24,300 nucleotides of DNA from a virus. Location of the stretch: positions 1 to 24,300 of the IMG/VR virus record IMGVR_UViG_3300017719_000194, one strand, 5' to 3'. The notes beneath the pieces were generated by a model. The model was not told where the DNA came from and searched no databases. It saw only the letters and a program-made list of their open reading frames with translations. How positions within the stretch are numbered: position 1 is the first letter of the stretch; every line of letters begins with the position of its first letter. The position numbers and the translations under genes were made by a program. Positions 20,282 through 24,297 of this stretch are shown here, piece after piece.

Positions 20282-20537
20282 ATCCCTGTTTAGTATCTAT
20301 CTTATTATTAGGTAAAGTCTCTTCTAAAGATTCTTTTTCTTCTTCAATTCTTTTAAGTATTTCAAATGCATCGAATATAGCTAGCTTCTTTGTAGCTGCA
20401 GCATTCTTTAATCTATCGGCAGCTAAATCATCTTCAGGGTCAGGCTTTATAATTTTTTCTTTTGCAACTCTTATGAGTTGCTCTACTGCCTGATGACCTG
20501 CTTCTATTATCTTTAGCTTAATTTCTTTACTACTCAT
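20259..20537 (-). CDS. terS: Putative terminase small subunit, 92 aa
   Basis: This small, charged, wholly helical protein overlaps the TerL start by 23 nt, and its own ATG overlaps the stop of the GroES-like gene (ATGA). Size, helical character (long helices about 4-30 and 40-75) and the place directly before TerL fit a small terminase subunit, which binds packaging DNA and regulates TerL. No helix-turn-helix can be assigned with certainty by eye. The call rests mainly on context. Confidence 0.65.
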   Translation of the reverse strand: MSSKEIKLKIIEAGHQAVEQLIRVAKEKIIKPDPEDDLAADRLKNAAATKKLAIFDAFEILKRIEEEKESLEETLPNNKIDTKQGFAERRSK

Positions 20538-21097
20538 ATTACTAAAGTTATTGAGTGGTCATACATTCTGTAAATAGTTTCACCATCTACATTAAATTTA
20601 TATTCTTGATTTGGTTTATAACAAACAGTATCTCCTACCTTAACACCTTTATTTTTTAATCCTTCATTTACAATTACCATTTCTCCCATAAGGGGTTCTT
20701 TTGTAAAAGGTTTAAATATATAGCTATCGGTTACAGGTACAGGTCTTACAAAACAATACCTATCGTATCCATACCAATCCCCATCTTTTTTGTAAGCAAA
20801 GAATTGGTCAGGGTCTAAGAAAAAAATATTGTCTTTTAAAAAACTTTTACCGCTCTTACGCCTTCCTTTCATGTCATTATAAAACTTAAAAACATTGTGA
20901 TGAACCAATAATGTATCACCTTTTTTAATAGGTCCACAGTAATTTAAAGGGGTTTCAACAACAATAGCTTCTCTATTAGATGTAGATACATCTTCTTCTG
21001 ACGTACTTGTTATAAAATCAATACCTCCTATGTTTTTAATATTGTCGTATCTCCTTTTATTTTTAGGTTCTACAATAAATTGATAAATAGATTTCAT
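20534..21097 (-). CDS. GroES-like co-chaperonin with two tandem GroES domains, 187 aa
   Basis: Co-chaperonins such as GroES and phage T4 gp31 cap the host GroEL and can be needed for capsid folding. Two halves each resemble GroES. Half 1 (5-103) has an N-terminal strand with Phe-Ile-Val-Glu-Pro, then a loop with Gly-Gly-Ile-Asp-Phe (24-28) resembling the GroES mobile-loop Gly-Gly-Ile-Val-Leu. It continues with Ile-Lys-Lys-Gly-Asp-Thr-Leu-Leu-Val (57-65) and a Leu-Asp-Pro-Asp-Gln end. Half 2 (112-187) has Phe-Val-Arg-Pro-Val-Pro-Val, Gly-Glu-Met-Val-Ile-Val, then Val-Lys-Val-Gly-Asp-Thr-Val-Cys-Tyr-Lys (152-161) and Val-Asp-Gly-Glu-x-Ile-Tyr-Arg-Met. These match the second half of GroES. Half 2 has only a short loop where the mobile loop should be. 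The gene is packed among terminase genes, consistent with a late head-assembly role. Confidence 0.72.
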   Translation of the reverse strand: MKSIYQFIVEPKNKRRYDNIKNIGGIDFITSTSEEDVSTSNREAIVVETPLNYCGPIKKGDTLLVHHNVFKFYNDMKGRRKSGKSFLKDNIFFLDPDQFFAYKKDGDWYGYDRYCFVRPVPVTDSYIFKPFTKEPLMGEMVIVNEGLKNKGVKVGDTVCYKPNQEYKFNVDGETIYRMYDHSITLVI

Positions 21098-21471: not shown

Positions 21472-21729
21472 TTAGTAAACAACGCAGACATTACTAGCAG
21501 CCCCTGCAGATGCAGGAGTTCTATATAGCTGACCTACCTGTAAAAATCCTGCTAGAGCAGCCGTGTTATCAGCGAATACAGGTAGATTTACACTTACTAC
21601 AGATAATAACTGAAGCAATGACTCTACTGTATAGTTTTTAGTTTTCTTTAAATCCTGTTCGTCAGTACCTATTAACATATCTGTTAGGTTAACCTGACCG
21701 GATATTGGGTATGTACTAATTAATGCCAT
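21472..21729 (-). CDS. Small fibre-associated structural protein, 85 aa
   Basis: The N-terminal half (Ile-Ser-Thr-Tyr-Pro-Ile-Ser-Gly, then Leu-Ile-Gly-Thr-Asp, then a Lys-Asn-Tyr-Thr-Val-Glu-Ser-Leu helix) resembles the start of many marine-phage fibre proteins. The C-terminal part (Ala-Asp-Asn-Thr-Ala-Ala-Leu-Ala-Gly then Gly-Gln-Leu-Tyr-Arg-Thr) matches a module common at the ends of phage fibre proteins. It may be a mini-fibre or fibre tip. It is the last gene of the fibre block, 3 nt after the second 112-residue gene, and is followed by the terminator. Confidence 0.72.
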   Translation of the reverse strand: MALISTYPISGQVNLTDMLIGTDEQDLKKTKNYTVESLLQLLSVVSVNLPVFADNTAALAGFLQVGQLYRTPASAGAASNVCVVY

Positions 21730-21732
21730 ATC

Positions 21733-22071
21733 TTAAGACCAAGGTAAGGGCTTAACAGCAGGAACTACAGGAGGATTGATTTTTTTATCAACTTGCGAAG
21801 CTAAAGACTTCTCAATAGAATCAACACCTTCTTTACCTAATGACTCTTTAACCCATCCAATAACTTGCTCTTCTGTAAGTTCAGAATAAGCAACAAACCC
21901 TTCTTCTTCTTTTGGCTTAATTACAATAGAACTTACTGCTGATGCTTTATATTCTTTTCCATCAACCTCTTCTGTACAATCTACTTCATAAAATATAGAT
22001 GTAACAAAATCTTTTTCATTTACTTCATCTATTGCCTGTAAACTTTTTATTTTCCAAGTATAATTTTTCAT
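21733..22071 (-). CDS. 112-aa fibre-cassette protein, copy 2
   Basis: It is paralogous to the protein at 23088-23426. Both start Met-Lys-Asn-Tyr-Thr-Trp, share Glu-Glu-Val-Asp-Gly-Lys in the middle, a Val-x-Gly-Trp-Ile/Val-Lys-Asp/Glu-Ser-Leu-Gly helix (about 72-82), and end in a Pro-rich tail finishing Leu-Pro-Trp. Such proteins are common beside phage fibre genes. The function is not established to my knowledge; a fibre-assembly or minor structural role is possible. It follows the 271-residue fibre by 28 nt. Confidence 0.75.
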   Translation of the reverse strand: MKNYTWKIKSLQAIDEVNEKDFVTSIFYEVDCTEEVDGKEYKASAVSSIVIKPKEEEGFVAYSELTEEQVIGWVKESLGKEGVDSIEKSLASQVDKKINPPVVPAVKPLPWS

Positions 22072-22099
22072 TTTTTTATTTTTTTTAAATTAGTTATTA

Positions 22100-22915
22100 T
22101 TAAGGTGCTACCATTAATTTTACAGGATTTCCATTAACAATTATTTCCCAAGTTTCAAACGCTGCACCTGTGTAAGGAGTAAATGTTCCTACGGGATATG
22201 AACCCGAACCAATAACAAGCTGATTATCTGCTGAAGCTTGAGCTTCACTACCTATTACAATAGTACCTGTAATTCCTCCTAATGCATCAGCAGCCTTTCC
22301 AATAAAAATATTATTATTTCCTGTTGTAATATTTTGCATTGCACTCGTTCCTAATGCTACATTACCTGAACCACTAGTAACAGCAAGCAAAGCGTTTTTA
22401 CCTACAGCTACATTGCTCTCTGCACTTGAGTTAAAAACAGATTTATGTGATTCAGAACCTACAGCCGTATTGTTTCCTCCATTCCAAGCCTCATTACCTG
22501 AACGGTATCCAATATATGTATTATTACCTGTTCTTGAATTATATCCTGTAAATGCACCAACACCTGTATTATAACTTCCTGATGTTGATAAAAAAGAAAG
22601 CTCACCTATTGCCGTATTTTGCTCTCCTGTAGTTGTTTGTTGCAATGCTGCTACACCTATACCTATATTTTGACTACCTGTGGTACTATTAATTAATGCT
22701 TGCCATCCTATTGCCACATTGTTTGTGCCTGAAACATTATTTTGAAATGCTTGCCATCCATAAACAGTATTATTTGTAGTTGGTTGTGCACTCTCAGCAA
22801 TGTCTGCCATTGTGAAAAATGCTGCTCTTGCATTTGTTTGTTCTGAGCCTAATTGTTCTACAGTTACACCTGTGGTGTCAGCTCTAAACTGTGCGTTACT
22901 TGGTACGGTTGCCAT
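22100..22915 (-). CDS. Fibre protein with YadA-like beta-roll, 271 aa (cassette copy 2)
   Basis: A conserved N-terminal anchor (1-42) is 24/42 identical to that of the 289-residue paralogue. Then come about eleven repeats (49-238) built on Asn-[Thr/Val/Ile]-x-[Ile/Val/Leu]-Gly with roughly 15-22-residue spacing. A C-terminal cap follows with Thr-Trp-Glu-Ile-Ile-Val-Asn-Gly. Repeats of this kind form trimeric beta-rolls in YadA-type adhesins. It is probably a trimeric head or tail fibre; which one cannot be told from sequence. It lacks the Gly-Thr-Ala-Asn-Lys-Val linker of the paralogue and has no S74-type chaperone domain. Confidence 0.82.
   Translation of the reverse strand: MATVPSNAQFRADTTGVTVEQLGSEQTNARAAFFTMADIAESAQPTTNNTVYGWQAFQNNVSGTNNVAIGWQALINSTTGSQNIGIGVAALQQTTTGEQNTAIGELSFLSTSGSYNTGVGAFTGYNSRTGNNTYIGYRSGNEAWNGGNNTAVGSESHKSVFNSSAESNVAVGKNALLAVTSGSGNVALGTSAMQNITTGNNNIFIGKAADALGGITGTIVIGSEAQASADNQLVIGSGSYPVGTFTPYTGAAFETWEIIVNGNPVKLMVAP
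22202..22771 (-). repeat. Beta-roll repeats of fibre copy 2
   Basis: About eleven degenerate units with an Asn-x-x-Ile/Val-Gly core (residues 49-238 of the 271-residue fibre), period about 45-66 bp at DNA level. Conservation is at protein level; exact DNA repeats are short. Confidence 0.75.
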
Positions 22916-22928
22916 AATATTGTTTTTT

Positions 22929-23057
22929 TTATTTTTGTTCTGTTGGAAATACTTCTCTTAATGCGTCAACTATTAGTGATGCATCGTTTAAATTGTAGCA
23001 TCCCTTTTGGATTGCTAAGTCTATTGCGTTTACTATTGTTTGTATCTTATCTTGCAT
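22929..23057 (-). CDS. Small hypothetical protein, 42 aa, between the two fibre cassettes
   Basis: A short ORF (ATG at 23057, TAA at 22929) fills most of the 172-nt gap between the cassettes. It starts Met-Gln-Asp-Lys-Ile-Gln and is amphipathic: helix about 3-17, a Lys-Gly-Cys-Tyr-Asn-Leu-Asn-Asp turn, helix 26-37, and a Pro-Thr-Glu-Gln-Lys end. The ordered helix-turn-helix pattern, tight fit and polar tail suggest a real gene. Length is the main doubt. No function is assigned. Confidence 0.62.
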   Translation of the reverse strand: MQDKIQTIVNAIDLAIQKGCYNLNDASLIVDALREVFPTEQK

Positions 23058-23061
23058 AATG

Positions 23062-23069
23062 CAAATATA
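23062..23069 (-). promoter_or_regulatory. Possible promoter element just before the 42-aa gene
   Basis: The minus strand reads TATATTTG, ending only 4 nt before the ATG at 23057. If used, transcription would start at or next to the ATG, giving a leaderless message for the 42-residue gene and a promoter for cassette copy 2. Chance occurrence is possible. Confidence 0.28.
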
Positions 23070-23087
23070 ATTATTTTATTTTTATGC

Positions 23088-23426
23088 CTACCAAGGTAAA
23101 GCAGGTTTGCTAGGTTCTACAACAGGACTAATCTTGCTGTCAATCATTCCTCCTACGGCTGCTTCAAAAGAAGCTACTGACTCAGCTCCTAGTGAATCTT
23201 TTATCCATCCTACTACTGTATCATTAGTTAAATCATCATAAGCAATGAAATCGTCTTTTTCAGATATCTCAAACTTTAAAGCATTGTGATTTAATTCAGA
23301 TGAGTATGTTTTACCATCTACCTCTTCTTCTCCCGATACGGTAAACGTAACATCTACCACATAGTTTAATTCTCCTTCTATATCTTTCGTATATAGACTT
23401 TCAACTGTCCAAGTATAATTTTTCAT
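23088..23426 (-). CDS. 112-aa fibre-cassette protein, copy 1
   Basis: It is paralogous to 21733-22071 (same length, start, central Glu-Val-Asp-Gly-Lys, Val-Gly-Trp-Ile-Lys-Asp-Ser-Leu-Gly helix and Leu-Pro-Trp end). It is acidic, with an N-terminal beta half, a helical C-terminal half and a Pro-rich tail. It lies 1 nt after the 289-residue fibre. The pairing of each copy with its own fibre suggests a functional link, such as fibre folding or attachment, but this is not demonstrated. Confidence 0.75.
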   Translation of the reverse strand: MKNYTWTVESLYTKDIEGELNYVVDVTFTVSGEEEVDGKTYSSELNHNALKFEISEKDDFIAYDDLTNDTVVGWIKDSLGAESVASFEAAVGGMIDSKISPVVEPSKPALPW

Positions 23427-23427
23427 T

Positions 23428-24297
23428 TTATGCTAATAATATTTTTTCTGCTACTCCATTTATAATTACATCCCAAGTTTTTGTCTGAGCTGCTGCTGCT
23501 GTGGTTACTGCTCCTGAGTTATAGGTTGAAGAACCAACTACAAACTGATTACTTGCTGTTGCTGTCGCCTCCTTACCCAATATTACAGAATGACTAAAGT
23601 TACCGCTATTTACATTCGCACCTAATGCCGAGTTACCTTCTCCTGTTGTGTTGGCTGATAACGCAGAAATACCAATGGCTGTGTTATCTGAAGATGTTGT
23701 GTTTTGTAAAGATGATACACCAAGTGCAGTATTACTATTACCCGAAATGTTATTCTGTAAACTAGTACGACCAACAGCAGTATTGTTAACTGCCGTTTGT
23801 ATTTTCCATCCTGTCGTGTATCCTATACAAATATTTTGAGTTCCACTAGTAGCATCCTGCAATGCAAATTCTCCTATTGCAACATTTCCATTACCATTTG
23901 TTAAACTTTTTAAAGTCCTAAATCCAAGAGATGTATTATAAATACCTGTATCATTTATTGCTTGAGATTCACCTCCAATAGCTGTATTGAATTGTCCACC
24001 ACCTACAGTCATTGCCTGATATCCATAAACTGTTACACCAAAATTACTCCGTACACCACCATACCATACAGATGTACCGTCATCATTCAATAAGCCATCT
24101 CCTAGAGTTGTTCCTGCTGTAAACTTAGCAACCTTATTTGCCGTTCCTGAACCTGAAAGACCTCCACCTGTTGTGTCTATAATGTCTTGCATTGTAAAGT
24201 ATTCAGCCCTTCCTTGCGTTTGTGCCGAACCTCTTTCTACTATAGGGACACCTGTTGTGTCTCCTCTAAACTGTGTATTACTTGGTATAATAGCCAT
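23428..24297 (-). CDS. Fibre protein with YadA-like beta-roll, 289 aa (cassette copy 1)
   Basis: It has the same anchor (1-42) as copy 2. Next comes a linker with Gly-Thr-Ala-Asn-Lys-Val-Ala-Lys-Phe-Thr and Leu-x-Asp-Asp-Gly-Thr (51-75), a motif frequent in Bacteroidetes phage fibres and surface proteins. About eleven Asn-x-x-Ile/Val-Gly beta-roll repeats follow (88-256), then a cap with Thr-Trp-Asp-Val-Ile-Ile-Asn-Gly. It is probably a trimeric fibre involved in surface contact. The gene is complete; upstream sequence lies outside the window, so its promoter is not seen. Confidence 0.82.
   Translation of the reverse strand: MAIIPSNTQFRGDTTGVPIVERGSAQTQGRAEYFTMQDIIDTTGGGLSGSGTANKVAKFTAGTTLGDGLLNDDGTSVWYGGVRSNFGVTVYGYQAMTVGGGQFNTAIGGESQAINDTGIYNTSLGFRTLKSLTNGNGNVAIGEFALQDATSGTQNICIGYTTGWKIQTAVNNTAVGRTSLQNNISGNSNTALGVSSLQNTTSSDNTAIGISALSANTTGEGNSALGANVNSGNFSHSVILGKEATATASNQFVVGSSTYNSGAVTTAAAAQTKTWDVIINGVAEKILLA
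23530..24036 (-). repeat. Beta-roll repeats of fibre copy 1
   Basis: About eleven degenerate units (residues 88-256 of the 289-residue fibre) with an Asn-[Thr/Val/Ile]-x-[Ile/Val/Leu]-Gly core, comparable in number to copy 2 but differing in most non-core residues. Confidence 0.75.

Follow-up and report, generated by a model that had tools for sequence, protein, structure and literature searches.

A phage's fibre loci determine its range of bacterial hosts. Phage Mu carries two fibre and assembly gene pairs, S-U and S′-U′, and an invertible segment chooses between them. In the Alteromonas phages A5, V22, and P24, a tail fibre forms a host-recognition module with a DUF4376 chaperone, a partner of 176 to 239 aa that resembles intramolecular chaperones (PMC10579305). 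In Pam3, the gp24 fibre is paired with gp25, a Tfa-like chaperone of 162 aa (PMC9608196).

The locus described here lies in a viral DNA of 24,300 nt (the window) and holds two fibre genes, each followed by a gene for a 112-aa protein of the Pfam family DUF7936 (PF25590). As in Mu, two fibre and partner pairs adjoin, but the pairs of the window are co-oriented; no long inverted repeats flank them, and phase-variable inversion was rejected on that ground. The nearest precedent for a cross-family fibre and partner unit is the A5/V22/P24 module, in which a small partner gene likewise stands behind the fibre and crosses families by horizontal transfer and recombination (PMC10579305); unlike that partner, DUF7936 has 112 aa and resembles no known chaperone in sequence or fold. 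For a two-domain partner the nearest precedent is Pam3 gp24/gp25, where the fibre-paired protein also has an N-terminal beta and a C-terminal helical part (PMC9608196), although gp25 is Tfa-like and the best Foldseek match of DUF7936 to solved structures has an E value of 0.14. In our view this is likely to be a mosaic locus, an adhesin island pieced together from horizontally exchanged fibre-DUF7936 modules, with DUF7936 most likely acting on the fibre.

Layout of the fibre locus

TerL and portal of the window match those of Flavobacterium elemo phages (46%) and of Cellulophaga phages (37 to 40% for TerL), and the closest relative in both proteins is MW202828 (75 to 77%). The window comes from a podovirus-type phage akin to the elemo phages of Flavobacterium and the phi40:1 phages of Cellulophaga. 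The fibre site comes just before p74, a GroES-like gene, p92, and TerL and is variable: MW202828 has one large gene there, with no DUF7936 found, and DUF7936 occurs in 6 of 46 related records, which were chosen by TerL and many of which are fragments. Phages of this group conserve the GroES-like protein (20534-21097, 187 aa; phrog_13932, E 1.8e-21) ahead of TerL.

The four open reading frames of the two cassettes (fib1-D1, 23088-24297; fib2-D2, 21733-22915) were confirmed, all on the minus strand. The features are as follows.

23428..24297, minus strand: fib1, 289-aa fibre (PHROG virion structural/tail spike matches, E 4e-20 to 2e-15)
about 24169-24297, minus strand: fib1 anchor A
between anchor A and cap, minus strand: fib1 middle, a linker and GxNTAxG repeats
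about 23428-23610, minus strand: fib1 type I cap, terminating in KTWDVIINGVAEKILLA
23088..23426, minus strand: D1, 112-aa DUF7936 protein (PF25590, E 1.9e-21), 1 nt past the fib1 stop
23083..23087, no strand: recombination join from an L098/L099-type D1 end to an L083/L085-type leader (identity shifts from L098 to L083)
23062..23069, minus strand: TATATTTG promoter-like box, 5′ of the 42-aa ORF
22929..23057, minus strand: o44, helical-looking 42-aa ORF between the cassettes (o44 profile)
22100..22915, minus strand: fib2, 271-aa fibre with anchor, repeats, and cap
about 22787-22915, minus strand: fib2 anchor (DNA 97% identical to L083)
about 22100-22284, minus strand: fib2 type II cap, ETWEIIVNGNPVKLMVAP, resembling that of L101
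21733..22071, minus strand: D2, 112-aa DUF7936 protein (PF25590, E 9.7e-24), 28 nt past the fib2 stop
21472..21729, minus strand: p85, 85-aa protein with an anchor-B type N terminus (LIGTD...TKNY)

Each fibre consists of an N-terminal anchor, a predicted shaft of YadA-like beta-roll repeats, and a short C-terminal cap; the S74 profile had no match in fib1 or fib2, both of which have the short cap. The AlphaFold model of the fibre is of low confidence (pLDDT 60), and its top Foldseek matches, none of them significant, are YadA-like heads, namely BoaA 3s6l (E 0.05, probability 0.94 to 0.99), CbpF, and SadA. A trimeric YadA-like beta-roll may be the form of both shafts.

The preliminary description overlooked o44 and its TATATTTG box, which agrees with TAnnTTTG, the Bacteroidetes -7 consensus. 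The o44 leader is common to the window, L083, L084, and L085, and the o44 profile matches immediately 3′ of DUF7936 in L098 to L106, L120, L124, L085, and the window, and in fibre-DUF7936 units o44 often comes third. Searches for an o44 family in Pfam and PHROG found none. In L118 and L123, o44 also lies nearby on the opposite strand. In relatives, large fibre genes at the same site begin with sequence related to p85, and p85 is possibly a reduced third fibre. A stand-alone anchor A protein of 154 aa, 5′ of a full fibre (L104:1420-1881), suggests that anchors also occur alone.

Separate relatives of the two cassettes

D1 and D2 are 40% identical (BLASTP, E 1e-29) and fib1 and fib2 34% (E 1e-39), with shuffle z-scores of 40 for D1/D2, 25 for the anchors, 21 for the caps, and 15 for the repeats. 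The preliminary description of two homologous fibre and 112-aa pairs in the same order is thus borne out by ORFs, BLASTP, and z-scores alike, as are its 24 of 42 identical anchor residues, its alignable caps, and its view of the fibre middle as the most diverged part. Its further proposal, a tandem duplication within this lineage, is not supported; the outcome that it had itself named as refuting was obtained when the copies were compared across relatives: fib1-D1 groups with L098/L099 and fib2-D2 with L082/L083, and a breakpoint follows the D1 stop.

Contigs L098 and L099 each carry a single cassette. D1 is 96 to 97% identical to theirs in DNA and 95 to 96% in protein, and the fib1 protein is 81 to 85% identical to their fibres; over the stretch that begins in the distal fib1 repeats and ends with D1, DNA identity to L098 is 91 to 100% in 60-base steps. 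D2 is 92% identical in protein to that of L082 and 80 to 81% to those of L083/L085. The core (p74, GroES-like protein, p92, and TerL N terminus), compared for single-cassette relatives where it is visible, that is in L099, is about 66% identical in amino acids to that of the window, versus 97% for L082/L083; the full TerL of L099 alone is 82% identical. An approximately unbiased (AU) test of the core rejected a union of the window with L099 (p 1e-24).

DNA comparison places the switch from L098-type to L083-type sequence no more than a few bases from the D1 stop. On the reverse complement, L098 identity drops to 55% over positions 1185-1245 and L083 identity is 100% from 1218; the window tracks L083 from the o44 leader onward. 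L084, in which the o44 leader directly follows o77 (order o77-leader-o44-fib2-D2-p85), looks like the window minus fib1-D1. These comparisons do not support a local tandem duplication and indicate that the cassettes were united from different phage lineages. Beside leader-o44-fib2-D2-p85, the presumed resident unit, which L083/L084 also have, stands fib1-D1, a unit of the type that is the only one in L098/L099. Horizontal recombination after the D1 stop joined the two, as the sequence comparison shows; the direction of transfer is one that we infer. Almost base by base, the locus shows how fibre loci are put together from exchangeable fibre-partner modules in marine flavobacterial phage relatives. 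L102 and L103, with near-identical D1 genes and unlike cores, give a pattern that reads as a second transfer; the AU test for D1 rejected a union of the window D1 with L102 and L103 (p 6e-4).

Duplication of one fibre and partner cassette in this lineage, with later divergence of the exposed parts, would account for the shared gene order, for the homology of anchors, caps, and partners, and for a pruned tree that places D1 and D2 in one clade; a clade of the wider D1 subgroup with D2 was not rejected (p 0.20, 33-row set). We nevertheless regard it as unlikely. The nearest relatives of each cassette are single cassettes on other contigs, the core tree conflicts with the cassette tree, and a clade of the window D1 with the D2 group was rejected (p 0.03, 16-row set). 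None of the two-DUF7936 loci examined has nearest-kin copies: elsewhere the copies come from different clades, as in L085 and L101, or are at most 41% identical. Window-type TerL was not found in the records of L085 or L101, either of which may be a fragment. D1 and D2 are truly related at depth, and since one pruned tree unites them (94/91), they may stem from an ancient duplication with transfer afterwards; D2 falls outside D1 in one DUF7936 tree and inside in another, and no claim made here rests solely on that placement.

The window is an entire IMG/VR record, so that fib1 starts 3 bases from the contig end. The fib1-D1 cassette takes up the final 1.2 kb of this 24.3-kb metagenomic contig, a position that would suit a misjoined assembly. 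We hold such a chimera to be very improbable: the join has no long shared word, in L085 too the leader comes after a DUF7936 gene, and D1-like and D2 genes occur together on that single contig.

Reshuffling of fibre parts and partners

In the window, as in L101, fib2 ends in a type II cap and is separated from its partner by a 28-nt spacer; in L083 and L085, where D2 is of the same type as in the window, the cap is type I and the spacer 1 nt. The fib2 cap has, on this comparison, been exchanged independently of D2. In L102, a fib2-like anchor occurs together with a fib1-like cap, and the partner is of D1 type. Anchors, repeats, caps, and partners are swapped separately, by recombination at the borders of genes and domains.

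Since anchors, caps, and partners recombine, strict fibre-partner specificity is not supported. The one D2 type behind different caps, and certain loci in which a single fibre is followed by two DUF7936 genes, speak against the idea that each 112-residue protein serves its own cognate fibre; every fibre of the window and L085 nonetheless has a DUF7936 gene behind it. In L157, L178, L217, and L235, two unlike DUF7936 genes (19 to 30% identical) stand in tandem.

DUF7936 and its place behind fibre genes

D1 and D2 match nearly the entire PF25590 profile with 77.1 and 84.5 bits (gathering cutoff, 27 bits). DUF7936 genes stand behind a fibre-like gene in 68 of 90 cases, versus 16 of 336 other small gene-like ORFs at the same loci, a contrast whose p-value is not literal, since the sequences are related and the set was partly fetched with fibre queries. 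Cap-bearing fibres, taken nonredundantly, are followed by DUF7936 in 19 of 22 cases (gap, -1 to 89 nt). Among 78 DUF7936 genes with a visible upstream gene, that gene is a cap fibre in 14, an S74 fibre in 22, another long gene in 33, and a short one in 9; the gap from fibre to DUF7936 has a median of 10 nt and is typically 1 to 29 nt. The family occurs in cyanophages, roseophages, and flavophage relatives, directly or within a few small ORFs behind a fibre or long structural-type gene in S-CBP4, S-RIP1, S-EIV1, MED4-117, CRP-5, 9515-10a, S-CBP3, DSL-LC07, MW202675, and MW202484, P-SSM2 being an exception among named phages.

The preliminary description was therefore right to see a true fibre-locus partner in the 112-aa protein. 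DUF7936 recurs behind the fibre genes of numerous unrelated phages and is therefore probably a fibre accessory of wide distribution. Pfam lists the family without a function; we link it to fibre genes here, and our literature search found no paper on DUF7936. This link gives DUF7936 a concrete, testable role as a tail fibre partner.

The AlphaFold model of the D2 monomer (pLDDT 89.7) has strands at 3-14, 22-36, and 39-50, a helix at 67-98, and a PLPW tail; W6, L65, T66, W73, and a C-terminal P-[WF] (36 of 39) are conserved in the family. Foldseek found no match in the PDB at E ≤ 0.001 (best, 0.14), and the confident matches were only other DUF7936 models. Homology to known chaperones was rejected: Pfam, NCBIfam, PHROG, and PDB sequence searches returned only DUF7936/phrog_7802, and when 27 members were searched against Pfam, DUF7936 alone rose above noise, with no match to the Tfa, Phage_tail_APC, or DUF4376 profiles. 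A position directly after the fibre gene, as expected of a chaperone, is what the 68 of 90 versus 16 of 336 show. Because neither sequence nor fold places it in those families, we file DUF7936 as possibly working like the chaperones, not as belonging to them.

From gene position and the predicted monomer, the likeliest role is that of a fibre assembly or accessory factor, a reading about which we are evenly balanced; translated right after the fibre, DUF7936 would act on it. If it is an assembly factor, the fibres of many uncultured phages would need it for their active form. The chaperone reading is weakened by the S74 fibres upstream of 22 of the 78 genes, which already carry their own chaperone, and DUF7936 is not simply a chaperone substitute, since it is found with such fibres and beside Tfa-type genes. 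The same company, S74 fibres that are self-chaperoned, a Tfa-type gene in MW202675 (PF16778, E 3.6e-13), and an ORF that by appearance is Tfa-like in L213/L216, would suit a structural virion part, at the fibre tip or joint, rather than a departing assembly factor, as would the strongly conserved P-[WF] tail. We entertain this only tentatively: DUF7936 follows fibres of any C terminus or anchor type, and the literature search found no virion proteomics for it. Similarly tentative is a general fibre accessory of many tailed phages, unrelated to known chaperones, which perhaps stays in the virion as part of the fibre or acts once the fibre has folded; hetero-oligomers are conceivable, with the two-unlike-DUF7936 loci of the window, L085, L101, L178, L217, and L235 as candidates.

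A lysis-linked or other role, taken together, is a minority reading. That DUF7936 belongs to the lysis module (small membrane protein, endolysin) that often comes next, and stands behind fibres by mere operon order, seems rather improbable: a small membrane-like ORF is the next gene in S-CBP4, S-CBP3, and DSL-LC07, joined by a lysozyme gene in S-CBP3 and DSL-LC07, but the window and L085 have a DUF7936 gene per fibre with no recognisable lysis gene between, and the gap from the fibre is typically 1 to 29 nt.

The three exceptions among the cap-bearing fibres (L113, L115, and L116) are followed by other small ORFs. At or near the next position, L113:7350-7634, L115:4889-5152, and L116:4857-5159 encode proteins of 88 to 101 aa with a WxxDDxxVxxW-like stretch, which may be analogous fibre partners.
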